The position numbers and the translations under genes are program-made. Of a DNA stretch of 64,000 nucleotides, positions 30,911-38,595 are shown piece after piece. Source of the DNA: Candidatus Fermentibacterota bacterium (GTDB lineage Bacteria; JAFGKV01). The stretch spans positions 1 to 64,000 of the forward strand of contig JAFGKV010000147.1 of assembly GCA_016928395.1 (NCBI GenBank). The letters are read 5' to 3'. Each line of letters begins with the position of its first letter. The first letter of the stretch is position 1. The notes beneath the pieces are model-generated. The model saw only the letters and a program-made list of their open reading frames with translations, was not told the origin of the DNA and ran no database searches.

Positions 30911-32680
30911 TCAGCGGAAGCGGTGCTTCAGGTAGGCGAACTGAGCCTCCAGTTCGGCGCGGTCCGCCGTGGCGTAGCGTGGGGGCAGATAGCGTCGATC
31001 CGAGGTGGCCAGCACTGCCGCCAGCTCCTGCAGGGCAAGAAGCTGGGGATCCAGGGGATCGATGAAGGAATCTACCGCGTCTTGAAGATCCTCGACATGC
31101 ACATCATCATCTCGTTGGGCAAGCACGGCCCGCTCCCTGGCACGATTGATGATTGACTCCACATCGCTGCCGGTCAGGGGCAGTGCGCCCAAGGTTGCGC
31201 GCACATAGGCCTGGACCTCGTCCGAGAGATCGACTTTGCGGCTCTTGGCGATGACCGAGAAGAGCTCCCCGACGTCGTCGGGATTCTGTGCCGGAAACAG
31301 CGGCATGCACAGCCCAAATCTGCCCTGACGCTTCATGTCGATGGAGAGCAAGTCAGGCCTCGAGGTCATGGCAACCCAAAGCTCTCTGCCCCGAAGGCTG
31401 GAGTCGCCGATATGCGCGGCGAAGGCCGCAAACACCCTGCTGGATACGCCGCTGTCGCCATCGGAGACCCGGCTGCCGAACACGGCGTCGGCTTCATCCA
31501 CTACGACGACTACCGGCCCCAGGGCCCGGATGGTCATGAGGATGCGAGCCTGCTGGCGTTCAGTGTCGCCAACCCACTTGGAGCGGAACTCGCCGATCTC
31601 CATGACGGGCAGCCCGCACTCGCTGGCGAAGCAATCGATGAGGAAGGACTTTCCCACCCCCACACGGCCCGGCACGAGCAGACCCCGCTCCAGCACGGAG
31701 GTCTTGCCGTTCTTGATCAGCCAGGCTAGCTCTCGAAGCCGTTTCTTGGCTGCCTCGTGGGTCGCCACATTATCCAGGCTGACGCCCGGCTTGGGGTCCT
31801 TGAACCGCACAAGACCCTGGCAATACTCCTCGATGAGCCGCTTCTTGCCTGAGGCGATGTGTTCCGCCGTGAGCCGCTGGCCATTGCGAACCGCCTCTGC
31901 CACAAGATGTTTCGTGCGGAGAAGGTTGAGCCCTGCGGTACGGTGCGCAAGGTCTGCCGGGGGGATATCGCTCCATCCCTCCAAACCCCGCTCTCCGGAT
32001 ATTTCCTTCACCCAATCGGCGCTCAGGAATCGCCGTCGTTCACTTTCCCCGGGAAGATCTATGCGGACCTGAGCGACGTGGGGATGCTGGAGGATGTCGC
32101 TGTGTAACTCGGCCGCTGATTCGGTAACCAAAAGAACACAAACGTCAAGCCGTCGCATCTCCGAGGATGCGGCCCACTTGAGCAGCGTGACCAGGGCCAT
32201 CCTCTCATCGAGGCTCGCGCCGCTTTCCTCCGTGGCAGGGATGATCTTCTCGGGAAAGTCAATGATAAGGGTGATGCCTCGCGTATTGGTTCCGTCAGCG
32301 GCGGCCAGGAAGAATCGCCTGAGCAAAGGCGCCAGGCGGGTGAACTCCCGGGGCGGCCCAAGGCTCCGGTATGACGTGCCCTCGACCCGGTCGTAGACTT
32401 CGATCCACTCGAAGAACCGTTGCTGCATGTCGGCGGAGCCGAAGGTCAGGCCATCACCAATGTCGTAGAAGAGGAGGACCGAGCGCTCTGGAAAGAGCCT
32501 CTGGGAGAGAAACCCTTTGAGCGGCACATAGGTCACCTGGCCATCCACGGTGACAGGGAATACGTCGAAGATATTGCCGTGCAGGACGAAGACGGTGTAC
32601 GATTCGCTGTTCCATCGACGGGCCAGCGCCAAAGCCCATCCATCCAGCGGCAGTCGTTCGCCGAGGTTGCGTTCGTTCAT
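30911..32680 (-). CDS. classical AAA ATPase with Vps4-like pore loop, linked to PspA
   Basis: The product has 589 residues. Residues ~1-285 look like a degenerate AAA domain: 'FVLHGNIFDVF' replaces Walker A, and 'GITLIIDFPEKI' takes the place of Walker B. Residues ~300-560 are an intact classical AAA module: Walker A 'GRVGVGKS' (338-345), pore loop 'SKWVGDTERQ' (367-376), Walker B 'VVVVDEADAVFG' (391-402), second region of homology 'TSRPDLLSIDMKRQGRF' with two Arg (451, 454) as possible fingers. 'SKWVG' is characteristic of the Vps4/katanin/spastin group. The start overlaps the coiled-coil gene's stop codon by 4 bases. It is last in the PspA operon, and a role in remodelling PspA filaments is inferred from this. 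Confidence 0.85.
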   Translation of the reverse strand: MNERNLGERLPLDGWALALARRWNSESYTVFVLHGNIFDVFPVTVDGQVTYVPLKGFLSQRLFPERSVLLFYDIGDGLTFGSADMQQRFFEWIEVYDRVEGTSYRSLGPPREFTRLAPLLRRFFLAAADGTNTRGITLIIDFPEKIIPATEESGASLDERMALVTLLKWAASSEMRRLDVCVLLVTESAAELHSDILQHPHVAQVRIDLPGESERRRFLSADWVKEISGERGLEGWSDIPPADLAHRTAGLNLLRTKHLVAEAVRNGQRLTAEHIASGKKRLIEEYCQGLVRFKDPKPGVSLDNVATHEAAKKRLRELAWLIKNGKTSVLERGLLVPGRVGVGKSFLIDCFASECGLPVMEIGEFRSKWVGDTERQQARILMTIRALGPVVVVVDEADAVFGSRVSDGDSGVSSRVFAAFAAHIGDSSLRGRELWVAMTSRPDLLSIDMKRQGRFGLCMPLFPAQNPDDVGELFSVIAKSRKVDLSDEVQAYVRATLGALPLTGSDVESIINRARERAVLAQRDDDVHVEDLQDAVDSFIDPLDPQLLALQELAAVLATSDRRYLPPRYATADRAELEAQFAYLKHRFR

Positions 32681-33594
32681 GCCCGTTGTTTTACCCTCCC
32701 GCGTCTCTCTCGCTCAGGTGTTGCCGCTTCGCCGAAGCCGATCCGCATATCCGGGGGCGGCAGATCGCCTACGACATCCTTGAACTCCGCCATCTGTGCC
32801 AGCCATCTGTTGGTCTGGTCAAGCTGCTCTACGCTGGCGTCGATCCGGGCGGTGAGCGCCTCCGTATTGCGCATGGCCATGGCGTCAGCCCGGATGAGCT
32901 TGATCTGCTGATGGAGGCGATCCTGTTCCGAGGCCACTAGCGCCAGGTTCTCCTTGGCCTCCTGCAGCCGTGCCATCCGTTTGTGAAGCACCGAGAGTCG
33001 GTCTGACCGGGAGCTATGAAGACGTTGCCTGGATTCCAGACTTTGAGGTGACCCGGTTGACGTGTCCGCCTCAATGTCTGCAGCGAGACGCTGAACTTCC
33101 TCTTCAGATTCCCGCACCATCCGGGGAAGGTCCTCCTTGCGTTCGCCTTCCAGGAAGACCTCCAGCGACTCCTGCATCCTAAGAAGCCGAAGATAGGTCC
33201 ACATAAGCTCCTCGAGTTTCCTCACCCTGGGACCATCGCTTCTGTCGTCCCCGTCTGCGCCGGCCTGATCTATCTCCCGGCATACGGCAGCCAGCTCATT
33301 GTAGCGGGTCCGCCCCGCATTCGTCAGCCTGGCCAGTTCCGCGTCTCGGCGGCGCACGAAGAGGATCATCTCCTGCAGAGCCTTCCTTCGTTCCTCCTTC
33401 TCCCGGCGGCGGTGGACCCATCGCTTGAAGAAAGGCATGTCAGGCAGGTAGATCCATCCCAGCGCATACCCTGTGACTCCCAGGATAAGGCCCAGTACCT
33501 CAGCCGAGAGCACACCCACGCCTACGGTAAGGATGGCTAGCCACAGGTGATGGGGGCTGTTCTTGAATTCCCGGCGGTAGTCTGGCTCGGGCAT
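32677..33594 (-). CDS. coiled-coil inner-membrane protein of the PspA operon
   Basis: The product has 305 residues from ATG 33594 (AAAGG upstream). Residues ~16-55 form one long or two short membrane segments ('LWLAILTVGVGVLSAEVLGL'). Most of the rest is charged and helical, with predicted coiled coils around 65-150, 170-195 and 205-275 ('ERRKALQEMILFVRRRDAEL', 'LHQQIKLIRADAMAMRNTEA'). No family was recognised. It lies 8 bases from the ABC ATPase gene and overlaps the AAA gene, so it is probably made together with both. A helical membrane adaptor between PspA and the AAA ATPase is one possibility. Confidence 0.75.
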   Translation of the reverse strand: MPEPDYRREFKNSPHHLWLAILTVGVGVLSAEVLGLILGVTGYALGWIYLPDMPFFKRWVHRRREKEERRKALQEMILFVRRRDAELARLTNAGRTRYNELAAVCREIDQAGADGDDRSDGPRVRKLEELMWTYLRLLRMQESLEVFLEGERKEDLPRMVRESEEEVQRLAADIEADTSTGSPQSLESRQRLHSSRSDRLSVLHKRMARLQEAKENLALVASEQDRLHQQIKLIRADAMAMRNTEALTARIDASVEQLDQTNRWLAQMAEFKDVVGDLPPPDMRIGFGEAATPERERRGRVKQRA

Positions 33595-33601
33595 GGGCCT
33601 T

Positions 33602-34492
33602 TCATCCTTCGAGTGCGGGGGCTGGGGAATCCCGCGAGGAACCGTTCGGGAGATCTTCCTCCAGTCTCTGCAACAGGTCATGGGTCATCTCGACAAACCA
33701 AGGGCGCTTGCGCATCACCTCTGGAGGCTCGTCGGGCCTCGGCGCCTCGACTTGCTCTACAAGCCTTCCGGGCCGGGCGCTCATCCGGTACACCCTGTCT
33801 CCCAGATACAGGGCCTCCTCCACCGAGTGGGTTACGAAAAAGACTGTTGCCTGTTGCTCTCGCCAGAGTTGTACCAGGAGTTCCTGCATGTGAAGTCTGA
33901 TCTTGGGATCCAAGGCCCCAAAGGGCTCGTCCATGAGGATGATGCGCGGGCACAGGATCAGGGTCGCTGCGATGGCGACTCGCTGCTGCATGCCGCCGGA
34001 GAGTTCGCCTGGGTATTTCCGCTCAGAGCCTTCAAGACCGATTCTCTGTATCCATCCCTTTGCCTGAGCATGACGGTCGGCCTTGGACACACCGCGGAGC
34101 ATGAGCCCGAAGGAGACATTGTCCAGCACCGTCAGGTGGGGGAGCAGAGAGTACTTCTGATCGACAACTCCACGGTCCGCACCCGGCCCGGTCACGGGCT
34201 TGCCGAACACCGTTACAGCACCGCTGGTGGGCGGGAAATGCGGCGGCAAACCTGCCAGAATGCGCAGCAACGTGGATTTCCCACATCCTGAAGGGCCGAC
34301 AATGGCGATGAGTTCACCCATGCCGGCAAGATCGTGCACCACGAATGAGACATCGGCGACGGCCACCTTGGCTGCCGGCCCTGTGCCGAATACCTTGCTC
34401 ACGCCGTGGAAGCGTACGATTTCTGCCGGAGCCACGTCGTCAGACGGCGGCGGTGGAGCAGGGGTTGCGGCATCGGCGACTTCGTCGGTCAC
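33602..34492 (-). CDS. ABC transporter ATPase, nitrate/sulfonate/taurine (SsuB/TauB) type
   Basis: The product has 296 residues. GTG 34492 overlaps the permease stop codon (GTGA, 34489-34492), which decides the start over the longer frame. Walker A 'VGPSGCGKSTLLRILAGLPP', Q-loop region 'GVVDQKYSLLPHLTVLDNV', signature 'LSGGMQQRVAIAATL', Walker B 'IILMDEPFGALDPKIR' and H-loop 'FFVTHSVEEALYL' are intact. An extended, Pro/Ala-rich N-terminus (~28 residues) precedes the nucleotide-binding fold. It powers the adjacent permease. Confidence 0.92.
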   Translation of the reverse strand: MTDEVADAATPAPPPPSDDVAPAEIVRFHGVSKVFGTGPAAKVAVADVSFVVHDLAGMGELIAIVGPSGCGKSTLLRILAGLPPHFPPTSGAVTVFGKPVTGPGADRGVVDQKYSLLPHLTVLDNVSFGLMLRGVSKADRHAQAKGWIQRIGLEGSERKYPGELSGGMQQRVAIAATLILCPRIILMDEPFGALDPKIRLHMQELLVQLWREQQATVFFVTHSVEEALYLGDRVYRMSARPGRLVEQVEAPRPDEPPEVMRKRPWFVEMTHDLLQRLEEDLPNGSSRDSPAPALEG

Positions 34493-35349
34493 GTGGCCCT
34501 CCGGTAGGGGAACAGGTTCTTCCCACCCCAACGCCAAGCACGATCGCATGCGATGGCGATGGCGACGATGACGATGATGATGGCGAAGATCGAAGAGGTG
34601 TGACCCCGGCGTTCAGACACGGAGATGAGGTAGCCCAGCCCCTGTTGCGCATTCACCACTTCGGCCAGGATGATCCATCCCCACCCTATGCCATATACCC
34701 CGCGGAGATGATCCCAGATATCGGCGGCGGCGACGGGGAAGAGCACGTGCCGCACCAGTTGCCAGTGGGTGGCGCCCTTGGTCCGCGCCACATCCAGGAA
34801 GGCTGGCACCACGTCAGACACTGACTTGATCACCAACGGCAACAAGGCCACGAAACACGCAATGAACAAAAACCCGATCTTCTGCGTCTCGGAGGCGCCC
34901 CACCACGCCAGAGTCAAGGGGATGAACACGATGATGGGCACATAGGCGCTGGCGAGACTCAAGGGTCGGAAAAAAGAAGCCACGGGGGGGAATGCCGCCA
35001 TACACACTCCCAGTGGCACGGCCACCATGGCGGCCAGCGAAAAGCCAATCGTGACCCGGACGAACGAGGTCAGCGCGCTGCGCACCAAGGCCTGCTCGAA
35101 ATGGAGTTTGGGGAACGCCTGCAGCACTTCGAAGGGATTGGGTAGGATAAGGGGCGCGATCATGCGATCCTCGATCCTCTCGCCCCGCGTCGCCACCCAC
35201 CACAGCAGGAGCAGCACTGCCACGAAACCCCAGGTCAGCGCCAGGCTGACGCCATGGGACACATCCTTTCGCACGGCCAGGCCCGTGTACCGTGCCACAC
35301 ACAGGAGCGCTGCCACCAGAACGGCGGCAAACAGCAGAAACCCCAGCAT
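34489..35349 (-). CDS. ABC transporter permease, SsuC/TauC type
   Basis: The product has 286 residues with about seven membrane segments, the first two forming an N-terminal extension to the usual core. The cytoplasmic coupling (EAA) loop is 'DVARTKGATHWQLVRHVLFP', followed by 'GWGWIILAEVVNAQQGLGYL', typical of nitrate/sulfonate/taurine permeases. It overlaps the neighbouring genes by 4 bases on both sides (ATGA at 35347-35350 region, GTGA at 34489-34492). One permease gene implies a homodimer. The substrate is unknown. Confidence 0.9.
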   Translation of the reverse strand: MLGFLLFAAVLVAALLCVARYTGLAVRKDVSHGVSLALTWGFVAVLLLLWWVATRGERIEDRMIAPLILPNPFEVLQAFPKLHFEQALVRSALTSFVRVTIGFSLAAMVAVPLGVCMAAFPPVASFFRPLSLASAYVPIIVFIPLTLAWWGASETQKIGFLFIACFVALLPLVIKSVSDVVPAFLDVARTKGATHWQLVRHVLFPVAAADIWDHLRGVYGIGWGWIILAEVVNAQQGLGYLISVSERRGHTSSIFAIIIVIVAIAIACDRAWRWGGKNLFPYRRAT

Positions 35350-37043
35350 CAGTCGCTCTCGAGCGGATACACCTTCACTTCAACGCGGCGGTTGCGGCGA
35401 TTGTGCTCGGGGTCGCTGGAATTGGTCATCCCGGGTACGGGATTGTCCCACCCATTGCCGATCACCCGGAACTTGTTCGGGTCGAACTTGTAGCGGGCCA
35501 TGATCTCCTTGCGCACGGCGTCAGCCCGGTCATAGGACAGTTGCCTGACCAAGTCCGCGGGCACAATCCCTCTGCGGCTGGCATCAGTGTTGCCTTCGAT
35601 CACGACATAGGCATTGCCGAACTTGCCCGCCAGTTCGCCGATTTCGGCAAGTACCTTGGGGATACTCGGATCATACACTGGATTCAGAGCCGCCCTGTTC
35701 GGTTCGAAGGTGATGATGACGGCCTTGGTGAGAATCTCGCCCGCTTCAGCCTCGGCCGTCTTGAAGAAGGTGGTGGAGCGGAAGGTGGGTTGGGAGAGAT
35801 CGGCGACATCTTTGTACTCCTCAGCCATGCCGGCCAGGATCGACGACGCCTTGACCTTGGCCGGAGCCACCGGAGTCTGGATGGCGCCCAAGGACTGGTA
35901 GATGGTCGAGGCGCGGTTCCATACCACCTCGAAGTTGGCGGGATTCATGGGATCGAGGAAGAAGTTGGCATTTTCTCGGTAGTTGGTGAGATGCGCATCA
36001 CCAGTGGTGATACCGCCATCGCTGCCGATCATGGCCTCGCACTCGTCCGCAGGGATATTGAAAGCCGCCGCCAGTTGTTGCGCCGCGGTGGGTACGTCGC
36101 TGCGCACCCGGTCCATACCCTCGAAGATGCCCCGTATCAGGTTCGCCACGATGTCTGGATGGTCGCGGAAGAAGTCATTACGGACGGCCCAGACATCGGC
36201 GATCAGGTGATTGGCGCTGGCCGTGGTCACGATGAGACGGGTACCAGCCAGCTGCTCCGACACGGTATAGATGTCGGGCGCCCAGCCGACAAAGGCATCA
36301 AAGCTGTCGTCCTGCACGAAGATCTTAGCCGCCGCAGGGGCATCGCCCGCCCAGCGGAAGTCAACCTCGGCCGGGTCGATACCGGCATCGACCAGCAGCG
36401 ACATAATGAAGAAGTGGCTAGGGGAGTTCTGCGCCAGTACCACTTTGCGTTTCTTGCCGGCCTGCATCCTCAGGTCATTGATGGATCGGATATCGCCCCG
36501 GGCAACGATGCCGTCACCGCCGCTGGACCAGTCGATCTGCTGACACACGATGGGCACCGTGCGGGAGTCCTTTATCAGCTCCGGAGCGAATAGTGCGATC
36601 ATGTCCAGAGTGCCCCATAGGATGTGGCTGTGACCGGTGGCGAACAGATCGCGAGCCTTCACCGGATCGTCCACGATGGAGAGTTCCACATAGAAACCGT
36701 ATTTCTGGTAGAAGAGGCTGGCGTCGTTGGGAGCGAGCCCATTGTTGGCAACGATAATCGGTGCCCAACCTGGCCAGATGTTGATCGGGAATCTCACCAC
36801 CATCTTGCCATCACGCATCGGCTTCGCATAGTCGCTCACGCCGGCGACGGGAGGGATTGCGCTCTCACCGATGAGCGATACCGCCTTGTCGCCGGCAAGG
36901 AGTCTCTGCGTGATATCGGAAGCCTTCAGCGACGGTATCGTTGGGGCACCGGTCGGGGCGATCTTGTCCCACCAGCGCCACACACCGAAGATCACGGCCG
37001 CGAGAAGAAGGAAGGTCAGGGCAAACTTGCCACGTCCGGTCAT
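35349..37043 (-). CDS. membrane-anchored ABC substrate-binding protein fused to an OmpA domain
   Basis: The product has 564 residues. Residues ~7-23 ('FALTFLLLAAVIFGVWRWW') look like an uncleaved membrane anchor. Residues ~80-400 are a TauA/SsuA/NMT1-like binding fold ('INIWPGWAPIIVANNGL', 'ATGHSHILWGTLDMIALFAP', 'FVGWAPDIYTVSEQLAGT'). Residues ~443-564 are an OmpA C-terminal domain: 'IEGNTDASRRG' (Asp ~487), 'LSYDRADAVRKEIMARYKFD', 'VIGNGWDNPVPG', 'RRNRRVEVKVYP' (Arg ~552). The two residues that grip diaminopimelate in OmpA are thus present. It should tie the binding domain to the inner membrane and to peptidoglycan. It overlaps the permease and follows PspA by 36 bases. Confidence 0.9.
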   Translation of the reverse strand: MTGRGKFALTFLLLAAVIFGVWRWWDKIAPTGAPTIPSLKASDITQRLLAGDKAVSLIGESAIPPVAGVSDYAKPMRDGKMVVRFPINIWPGWAPIIVANNGLAPNDASLFYQKYGFYVELSIVDDPVKARDLFATGHSHILWGTLDMIALFAPELIKDSRTVPIVCQQIDWSSGGDGIVARGDIRSINDLRMQAGKKRKVVLAQNSPSHFFIMSLLVDAGIDPAEVDFRWAGDAPAAAKIFVQDDSFDAFVGWAPDIYTVSEQLAGTRLIVTTASANHLIADVWAVRNDFFRDHPDIVANLIRGIFEGMDRVRSDVPTAAQQLAAAFNIPADECEAMIGSDGGITTGDAHLTNYRENANFFLDPMNPANFEVVWNRASTIYQSLGAIQTPVAPAKVKASSILAGMAEEYKDVADLSQPTFRSTTFFKTAEAEAGEILTKAVIITFEPNRAALNPVYDPSIPKVLAEIGELAGKFGNAYVVIEGNTDASRRGIVPADLVRQLSYDRADAVRKEIMARYKFDPNKFRVIGNGWDNPVPGMTNSSDPEHNRRNRRVEVKVYPLESD

Positions 37044-37079
37044 TGGGCTACCTCCTAAAAGTGCGGTACGTCGGCGGGG

Positions 37080-37841
37080 CTACTCCGCTATCTTCTGACG
37101 CGTCTCCGGTTGCTCTGGCTGCGCGGCAGTCGTCGCTGCCTCGGGCTGGACCAACCCCGCCTTCTTTCGATATTCCTCGAATAGCATGGCGCCTCGGGCT
37201 CTCCGGGTCTCCTGCTGTTGCTTCACGTTCGAGCCCATCTCCTTGGCGAGATCCAAGGTGGCCCTGATCTGCCCCTCTCCCGAAGCAGCGGACTGGCGAA
37301 GCCTCTGCATGGATTCGCCCATCTCACCCCCCATCATCCCTTGCAGCTCGCCCACGGAGCTCTTCATGAGGCTGGCCAGATTCTCCAGCGATCGTCCCAC
37401 CGCAACCCTGGCTTTCACGTGCTCGAACTCCATCTGAAACTTCTGTACCTCGCGGATGCTCTGGGCGATGATCTGTGTGTTCTGTTTGTACAAATCCTCG
37501 AGATTCTGACGCTGGGCTTCGTTCTCGCGGATCTCCTCCTCGAGATTGGCCAGCGTCTCGGCGTAATGGGCTCCGTTTTCGACGTCGTTGACGTTGGCGG
37601 CCGCCGCAAGCAGGCCCTGCAGCTCCTGACGCTGCCGTTCCTGCCGCTTCACCTGGTCTTTGAGCAAGGCAACCTGCCCGGCGAGTTGCCCGTTGGCATA
37701 GTGGGCCTTGTCGGCCTTGGTGCGAGCGTCGCGAATGCCGCGTTCGATCACCGCCTGGTTGATGGCATCGGTCTCTGTTGCCTTGTCAGCCATCAGGCCC
37801 AGGAAGATGAACACGCGTTTGATGGCGCGAAACAGACCCAT
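37080..37841 (-). CDS. pspA: PspA/IM30 family membrane-remodelling protein
   Basis: The product has 253 residues. It begins 'MGLFRAIKRVFIFLG' (an amphipathic helix) and is nearly all coiled coil from ~25 to ~215, rich in Gln, Glu and Arg ('QIIAQSIREVQKFQMEFEHV'). A disordered Pro/Gln tail ends the chain. This is the PspA/IM30 (Vipp1) layout, though diverged. Members are now grouped with ESCRT-III and form membrane-binding rods or rings. It sits second in the operon, 10 bases after the vWA gene. A PspA relation is by layout and sequence pattern; a generic coiled-coil protein cannot be fully excluded. Confidence 0.78.
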   Translation of the reverse strand: MGLFRAIKRVFIFLGLMADKATETDAINQAVIERGIRDARTKADKAHYANGQLAGQVALLKDQVKRQERQRQELQGLLAAAANVNDVENGAHYAETLANLEEEIRENEAQRQNLEDLYKQNTQIIAQSIREVQKFQMEFEHVKARVAVGRSLENLASLMKSSVGELQGMMGGEMGESMQRLRQSAASGEGQIRATLDLAKEMGSNVKQQQETRRARGAMLFEEYRKKAGLVQPEAATTAAQPEQPETRQKIAE

Positions 37842-37851
37842 GGTCTCCTCC

Positions 37852-38595
37852 TTACTGGGTGTGGAATGAATCGGGCTGCGCCGGCTCCTCTGATTCCAGC
37901 AGGATCTTCTGCTCCATTATGAAAGAAAGCTGATCACTGAGCTGGATTTCGTCGGCCGCAGCAACCACCGTCACATCATGTTGCCGGAGCTCATCAAAGA
38001 GGGCCGCGGCGATGTCAAACGCAATAAAATGAACACCGATGGCGGTAGCCAGCGCTTCGGCCCGCGATTGAATCTGTGGAATCACGGCCTTGGGATCGGG
38101 ACCTGTCGTGTTCATCCCATCGGTGATGACCAGAATGTGATTCCGGGACAAGGGCGAGGCGAGCACCTGTTGCGCCGCCATCTCCAGGGATCTGCCCAAG
38201 GGCGTCGAACCGCGGGGCGTGACCCCGGCGTGGAGCCAGCTCCTCAGGGCAGCCGCGTCGAATGGGCCGAAGGGAACGGCCTCGGCGGCCCCTCCCGATC
38301 GAAACACCACGAGACCGGACCGAACCTGCCGGGGATGGGACGAGCCGGGCCGCGCGTACTCCTCCACGCGGGCCACCACAGAGGCCAAGGCCCTGGCTCC
38401 GATGACGTGCTTCGGGCTGCGTCCCCCTGCGGCGTCGAGCACGGCATCGTCCATGCTGCCGGAGGTGTCGAACACAACGACAAGGTCCAAACCCTCATCG
38501 CTCTGGGGAGGATAAGAATCACCGCATGCCAGTATGACCGAGAGGCCAAGGGTCAAGGGAAGAAGAGCTCTCACGGGTAGGCGGTTCATACTCAC
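37852..38595 (-). CDS. von Willebrand factor A domain lipoprotein
   Basis: The product has ~247 residues. GTG 38595 lies seven bases after AAGGAG; ATG 38589 is also possible. A lipoprotein signal with lipobox 'VILAC' precedes the vWA domain. The metal-site (MIDAS) motif 'VVVFDTSGSMDDAV' is complete, with later Thr in 'VTPRGSTPLGRSLE' and Asp in 'ILVITDGMNTT'. It probably sits in the periplasm on a membrane and binds a partner through Mg2+ or Mn2+. It is the first gene of the seven-gene PspA operon. Confidence 0.88.
   Translation of the reverse strand: MSMNRLPVRALLPLTLGLSVILACGDSYPPQSDEGLDLVVVFDTSGSMDDAVLDAAGGRSPKHVIGARALASVVARVEEYARPGSSHPRQVRSGLVVFRSGGAAEAVPFGPFDAAALRSWLHAGVTPRGSTPLGRSLEMAAQQVLASPLSRNHILVITDGMNTTGPDPKAVIPQIQSRAEALATAIGVHFIAFDIAAALFDELRQHDVTVVAAADEIQLSDQLSFIMEQKILLESEEPAQPDSFHTQ

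Follow-up and report, generated by a model that had tools for sequence, protein, structure and literature searches.

Does any bacterial protein of the ESCRT-III superfamily (ESCRT, endosomal sorting complexes required for transport) have a motor of its own to take its polymers apart, as Vps4 does for ESCRT-III? In the passages of Liu et al. (2021; PMC8281802) that touch on this point, a Vps4 equivalent for Vipp1 is stated to be not known, and whether bacterial ESCRT-III proteins have a Vps4-like motor is explicitly left open. It is raised again by a seven-gene operon of Candidatus Fermentibacterota bacterium (assembly GCA_016928395.1), lying within positions 1 to 64,000 of contig JAFGKV010000147.1, the 64,000-nucleotide stretch analyzed here (the window). 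The operon encodes a PspA-family protein, a tandem AAA protein, a membrane coiled-coil protein, a vWA protein, and an ATP-binding cassette (ABC) importer whose solute-binding protein carries an OmpA domain. With a probability of roughly 0.5, we read it as an ESCRT-III-like membrane-remodeling module with its own disassembly motor, controlled by a wall-tethered periplasmic receptor. This reading is favored because of the conservation of gene order, the identity of PspA, the motifs of the AAA protein, the linkage of a dedicated PspA type to that protein, the PspA tail, and the existence of a sister form without the importer.

The gene neighborhood itself is not new, the full set except the vWA gene having already been described by Ravi et al. 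(2024; PMC11237479). As given in the main-text passages of that paper, it comprises PspA, a transmembrane Snf7-like protein, a two-domain AAA protein whose N-domain is dead, an ABC ATPase, a permease, and a binding protein–OmpA fusion (example, OGG56892.1), for which ATP-dependent membrane remodeling coupled to solute transport was proposed. The window shares PspA and the two-domain AAA protein with an inactive N-terminal copy, as well as the ABC ATPase, the permease, and the binding protein with an OmpA domain in the operon; its coiled-coil protein has a hydrophobic hairpin and may correspond to the transmembrane Snf7 homolog, although its fold matches gave no sign of a likeness to Snf7. The main text of Ravi et al. 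(2024), supplements not included, makes no mention of a vWA gene, and its passages on this system hold neither a transporter-less form nor a PspA tail motif, nor the broad distribution within a single family that is probably myxobacterial. These four points are additions to that main text, and they sharpen the mechanism.

Organization of the operon

Domain identities were taken from Pfam and NCBIfam scans of the seven proteins, and gene coordinates were set with conserved start sites. The features, in the direction of transcription, are as follows.

37852–38589, minus strand: periplasmic vWA protein, 245 amino acids, with a signal peptide and a complete metal-ion-dependent adhesion site (MIDAS; DxSxS...T...D) (Pfam VWA, 37.6 bits)
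37080–37841, minus strand: PspA/IM30-type coiled-coil protein of the ESCRT-III superfamily, 253 amino acids (weak PF04012 match, synteny, fold)
37107–37148, minus strand: Ala/Pro/Gln linker ahead of the PspA tail motif (sequence)
37083–37106, minus strand: PspA C-terminal motif ETRQKIAE, a predicted docking motif (conservation in homologs)
35349–37043, minus strand: inner-membrane-anchored solute-binding protein (NMT1/SsuA type) with a C-terminal OmpA peptidoglycan-binding domain, 564 amino acids (Pfam/NCBIfam)
34489–35349, minus strand: ABC permease of the NitT/TauT (TauC/SsuC) type, 286 amino acids (BPD_transp_1, 55.5 bits; SaoP/TauC-like, 93–100 bits)
33602–34492, minus strand: ABC ATPase of the NitT/TauT type (TauB/SsuB), 296 amino acids from GTG (ABC_tran, 98 bits; TauB-like, 210 bits)
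32677–33594, minus strand: membrane coiled-coil protein, 305 amino acids, predicted cytoplasmic coiled coil (AlphaFold2 predicted local distance difference test, pLDDT, 84.8)
30911–32680, minus strand: tandem AAA protein, 589 amino acids, with a predicted inactive N-terminal and active C-terminal AAA domain (Pfam AAA, 69.6 bits; motifs; structure matches)
31646–31669, minus strand: Walker A motif of the AAA protein, GRVGVGKS (sequence motif)

Inspection of open reading frames in the window confirmed the original prediction of a seven-gene minus-strand operon (38589–30911): all seven frames were found, in the 5′ to 3′ order vWA, PspA, binding protein–OmpA, permease, ABC ATPase, coiled coil, and AAA, and this order is co-conserved in relatives. 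The intergenic junctions, in gene order, are +10, +36, −1, −4, +7, and −4 bases; the three overlaps that had been predicted therefore exist, but two of them are of 4 bases and one is of a single base, rather than all three being of 4. Upstream of several starts there are Shine-Dalgarno-like sequences (AGGAGG and similar), several of them good ribosome-binding sites. In a scan of the seven-gene stretch against shuffled sequences, no internal promoter- or terminator-like site rose above background, with which a single transcript, likely on the basis of the sequence, is compatible. Because the upstream neighbor is divergent and the downstream yihA gene is convergent, the operon is a self-contained transcription unit. 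The operon is real and far from chance, since the identical order is seen again in other phyla.

Identity and tail of the PspA protein

The window PspA scores 17.2 bits against PF04012 (PspA_IM30), the cut-off of which is 33.9, and a PF04012 search of the window's own genome gave no match at E ≤ 0.001; homology was therefore shown through relatives. The homologs in syntenic positions score 72.9 (L074), 49.1 (L143), 44.9 (L149), 39.7 (L144), and 28.2 bits (L142), four of the five lying above the cut-off, and an iterated profile seeded with the L074 protein picks up the close homologs of the window PspA. An AlphaFold2 model built from 16 homologs (pLDDT 69) consists of a long helical hairpin (helices 2–83 and 87–168), as in the Vipp1/PspA fold; its five best Protein Data Bank (PDB) matches are all Vipp1 structures, including 8qbs, 6zvr, 8qbw, and 7o3w (E 0.002–0.012, probability 1.00), with none passing E 0.001. 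A profile of the close homologs found no match among PDB sequences, and profile–profile comparison of the close PspAs with the L074 PspA gave an E of 7e-4 but a probability of 27%, and is not relied on alone. Via synteny, intermediate sequences, and structure, the product of 37080–37841 is accepted as PspA, as had been predicted; it did not prove unrelated to that family.

At the C-terminus of the window-type PspA, Q249, I251, and E253 are invariant in 16 homologs (Q-x-I-x-E, as in RQKIAE). A further tail was found in the phylum of genome G030, where two kinds of PspA occur: an ordinary kind (100–185 bits) and a second kind (about 60–77 bits). Among the 85 genomes with both the second kind and the AAA protein, 70 have the two genes on the same strand at a spacing of 5.5–14.7 kb, the unlinked remainder having them on other contigs (14) or 25 kb apart (one), whereas an ordinary PspA lies near the AAA gene in 0 of the 12 genomes having both. 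At its C-terminus, the second kind has a Pro/Gly/Ser linker that looks disordered, and after it a short motif. This motif is KT[IL]G in 19 of 20 sampled PspAs of the second kind or linked to the AAA protein; the twentieth tail, QRTMG, belongs to a divergent PspA (G691) that is also linked to the coiled-coil and AAA genes. KT[IL]G occurs in none of 18 ordinary PspAs, one of which (KKKLG) fits the loosest pattern. The sampled PspAs of this phylum share descent, and their number overstates their independence; the recurrence of tails in separate branches, namely QKDLGP/KELGP (L142), EKTLGS/EKQIGS (L143), QREMGP (L144), and QRGLGP (L149), is stronger evidence than the within-phylum count. As judged from sequence, a tail of the [KR]x[ILM]G type after a flexible linker resembles the docking tails of ESCRT-III proteins, and the bacterial tails are proposed to be a functional analogue of MIT-interacting motifs (MIMs), not MIMs by sequence. 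The family of the G030 phylum with the dedicated PspA is probably myxobacterial, in keeping with examples already published from deltaproteobacteria.

The tandem AAA protein

Besides its Walker A motif, the C-terminal AAA domain carries the Walker B motif VVVDEAD, the pore loop FRSKWVG, and the arginine finger KRQGR, and 14 aligned homologs keep in this domain Walker A (GRVGVGK[ST] or equivalent), DEAD, variants of pore loop 1, and KRxGR. The N-terminal AAA domain aligns throughout the 14 homologs without the P-loop lysine, and is presumably inactive. The closest solved structures are the D2 (second) domains of CDC48/VCP, and NCBIfam gives 65 bits for CDC48 versus 33 bits for CdvC; no MIT or Vps4_C family was matched in Pfam, the N-terminus being a degenerate AAA domain. 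A Vps4-like descent is rejected on these grounds, and the Vps4-like AAA ATPase of the original prediction was borne out neither by descent nor by architecture. The protein is Vps4-like at most in function.

Homologs of the AAA protein at 25–36% identity in other phyla and in Verrucomicrobiota (L062–L070) are mostly unlinked to PspA. Since the AAA protein alone is for this reason a poor marker, a profile of the coiled-coil protein (A4) was used as the marker in the genome surveys given below.

Verrucomicrobiota relatives of 30–33% identity lie away from PspA (L063:8383–16206, L062, L064, and L065), the one in L063 adjoining, by eye, BatA- and DUF58-like genes. Elsewhere (L067:4545–11154), a 34%-identical AAA gene directly follows that of a 1623-residue protein, the N-terminus of which looks, by eye, like a Ser/Thr protein kinase.

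The binding protein and its importer

The importer with an OmpA-fused binding protein that had been predicted was recovered through ABC ATPase, permease, OmpA, and SsuA/TauA family matches. The binding protein scores 34 bits for OmpA and 37.8 bits for SsuA_fam, the latter being a family-level SsuA/TauA call on its central part, and its N-terminal hydrophobic anchor is conserved. The motifs of the ABC ATPase are intact (Walker A, GPSGCGKST; signature, LSGGMQQRVA), and all three NitT/TauT components, namely permease, ATPase, and NMT1/SsuA-type binding protein, occur together in the window. In the literature, no paper was found on OmpA-fused binding proteins of this kind.

Forms with and without the transporter

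A scan of species genomes returned 14 close PspA relatives, mostly in Verrucomicrobiota and Lentisphaerota metagenome-assembled genomes, and two forms of the operon were distinguished. Form A, with the gene order of the window, is complete in six loci (the window, L001, L004, L007, L010, and L059) and partial in L085, of the same genus as the window, and L086. Form B, that is, PspA, binding protein–OmpA, coiled coil, and AAA, with the vWA gene in several cases and without the permease and ATPase, is found in L003 (where the contig ends before the AAA gene), L006, L008, L011, L013, L060, and L061. In three genomes the genes are split. No permease homolog was present at E ≤ 1e-30 in the form-B and split genomes searched, whereas all five other form-A genomes have one.

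In a tree of AAA proteins, six form-B sequences make up one fully supported clade among the form-A sequences. It is simpler to assume that form B lost the importer, because distant operons also carry a transporter; and because the whole clade retains everything else, the transporter is dispensable. The binding proteins of forms A and B are about 30% identical to each other, and comparisons inside form B give 77% identity for the binding domain and 76% for the OmpA domain. The binding protein is thus conserved without an importer, and therefore has a role beyond import, which points to sensing or scaffolding.

The order of the genes is kept well beyond these relatives, and the rarity of co-occurrence that had been feared did not materialize. 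With the coiled-coil profile, 13 of 386 genomes sampled across the domain gave a match, as did 113 of 193 from a sample of the G030 phylum, most of the latter from a single family (f29). Four distant loci (L142, L143, L144, and L149), at 20–40% identity, have the full order from PspA through binding protein–OmpA, permease, ATPase, and coiled coil to AAA. In six others (L074, L131–L134, and L140), PspA is followed by a binding protein without OmpA and the coiled-coil protein, and several kilobases further down the same strand comes the AAA gene; in L139, L146, L147, and L148, binding protein–OmpA, permease, ATPase, and coiled coil occur without an adjacent PspA or AAA gene. Because distant neighborhoods vary in this way, either the transporter or the PspA/AAA pair can be missing; the binding protein and the coiled-coil protein are the most constant partners, being together in most loci.

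This variation bears on the possibility that the system is primarily an importer, with the coiled-coil, PspA, and AAA proteins protecting or assembling the transporter (by quality control or the sealing of proton leaks) and OmpA only positioning the binding protein. Such a role would suit the intact importer family signatures in the window and the four loci lacking an adjoining PspA/AAA pair. However, form B and the myxobacterial-type form keep the rest of the system without this permease/ATPase pair, and the form-B binding protein is still strongly conserved, so that we regard a primary role in import as rather unlikely.

Some of the distant loci have peculiarities of their own. In L149 (1575–5766), the PspA gene of a full operon is flanked by two binding protein–OmpA genes. 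One genome (G835) carries both a transporter–coiled coil locus without PspA/AAA (L139) and a PspA–binding protein–coiled coil–AAA locus without that transporter (L140), as if the halves had been split into paralogous loci. In L147 (12882–13703) and L148 (3701–4459), the position of PspA is held by a protein without a confident Pfam match, the N-terminus of which (MGLLRKLAxLVVEFPDE) resembles an amphipathic helix, and which may serve as a further peripheral membrane partner.

Proposed mechanism and its alternatives

In the proposed remodeling module, PspA, by analogy with its family, would polymerize on the cytoplasmic face of the inner membrane, and the AAA protein would grip the flexible C-terminal motif of PspA, thread or extract subunits, and so recycle the polymer in the manner of Vps4 with ESCRT-III. 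The coiled-coil protein, with two predicted transmembrane segments, may anchor or nucleate the machinery at the membrane and link it to the binding protein, as its constant co-occurrence suggests. The binding protein, predicted to be anchored in the inner membrane with its OmpA domain attached to peptidoglycan, would sense a small, probably anionic ligand of the NitT/TauT class and/or the distance across the envelope; it would also feed the ABC importer in the window form and work without an importer in the sister form. The vWA protein may be a clade-specific, periplasmic, metal-dependent adaptor. As to the purpose of such a module, we would infer, as the original prediction did, an envelope-stress or membrane-repair function switched by a ligand. 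The fullest version of the proposal, a complete bacterial counterpart of ESCRT-III/Vps4 in which a tail-docked dedicated PspA is turned over by an AAA disassembly motor, gated by a peptidoglycan-tethered receptor with or without an importer, is put forward tentatively, as a possibility below even odds.

Several observations weigh against a module of this kind. In other bacteria, according to the relevant passages of PMC11746142, PspA polymerizes and remodels membranes without an AAA partner; conversely, AAA homologs exist without PspA nearby, as do the four transporter–coiled coil loci mentioned above. Furthermore, the window tail RQKIAE is not an exact fit to [KR]x[ILM]G.

PspA might also regulate the AAA protein instead of being its substrate, as E. 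coli PspA inhibits PspF, with the client of the AAA protein lying elsewhere (for example, the coiled-coil protein). PspA is an established adaptor or inhibitor of AAA+ proteins, going by titles cited in PMC8281802 and PMC11746142, and the coiled-coil and AAA genes also adjoin in genomes such as G689 and G705, where no PspA was seen close by. The AAA protein, however, belongs to the classical/CDC48 type, has an aromatic pore loop, and is not an enhancer-binding protein, and a tail on a linker, as PspA has it, would fit a substrate that is threaded or docked; regulation is accordingly judged unlikely. That the genes are merely co-transcribed neighbors without a common machine, clustered by chance or selfishly after horizontal transfer, is very improbable because of the linkage data, with order and subsets recurring in several divergent branches and a specific PspA type co-occurring with a specific AAA type, even though block transfer between phyla is probable (see below).

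The operon family offers a candidate motor together with a putative docking motif open to mutation, and the ordinary PspA paralogs, which have neither the tail nor the linkage, provide a natural control. Since most of the genomes sampled from one family, probably myxobacterial, contain it, it is probably testable in a tractable strain; no paper on this system in Myxococcus was found in the literature. A role of the binding protein beyond import would be an unusual link of periplasm, cell wall, and membrane remodeling.

Comparison with known systems

Like ESCRT-III/Vps4 (CdvB/CdvC in archaea), the window system pairs a polymer protein of the superfamily with an AAA motor, and shares a tail after a flexible linker and a pore loop with W-V-G; unlike it, the window AAA protein lacks an MIT domain and is CDC48-like, in tandem with a dead N-domain, and the tail is not a MIM by sequence. 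With the classical Psp system (PspA–PspF, PspB, and PspC) it has in common a PspA-family effector and an AAA+ partner. However, its AAA protein is not a transcriptional activator, a transporter, an OmpA fusion, and a coiled-coil membrane protein are added, and no match to the PspB, PspC, or PspF families was found among the seven operon proteins in Pfam/NCBIfam. The permease and ATPase families and the NMT1-type binding domain are those of NitT/TauT importers (TauABC and SsuABC), from which the window type differs in that the binding domain is membrane-anchored and OmpA-fused and the transporter is missing in the sister form.

The coiled-coil and vWA proteins

The coiled-coil protein has an N-terminal hydrophobic helical hairpin (about residues 13–51) followed by about 220 residues of coiled coil. 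It has no convincing family in Pfam/NCBIfam and no meaningful PDB match by sequence or fold; its model gave weak matches to BAR/SMC coiled coils, and ESCRT-III is absent among the 50 best hits.

The vWA gene is accessory, occurring only in the window and Verrucomicrobiota–Lentisphaerota forms, and its motifs DTSGSM, TPLG, and DG are invariant in 12 homologs. The product had been described as a vWA lipoprotein. The vWA domain is upheld, but the lipoprotein is not, at least as a general feature: the single Cys (ILAC-G) varies among homologs.

Transfer between phyla and outlying genes

The AAA protein, PspA, binding protein, and permease are 72–79% identical to their Lentisphaerota counterparts, compared with 50% for the neighboring Lon, and G002, a genome of the same family as that of the window, gave no matches to the binding protein–OmpA, PspA, or AAA proteins. 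The operon was, judging from these sequence comparisons, probably transferred between phyla as a unit. In a genome from the same genus, the operon sits on a short contig and is 77% identical to that of the window at the DNA level. The location of the operon differs within the genus and the locus has moved, because in the same-genus genome another gene adjoins yihA; this gene encodes a multi-transmembrane protein that is not part of the operon (L087:1–1950).

In another genome, PspA stands alone beside a phospholipase D-like protein (L009:9001–11893; PLDc_2, 120 bits), and the AAA gene stands alone on another contig (L071).

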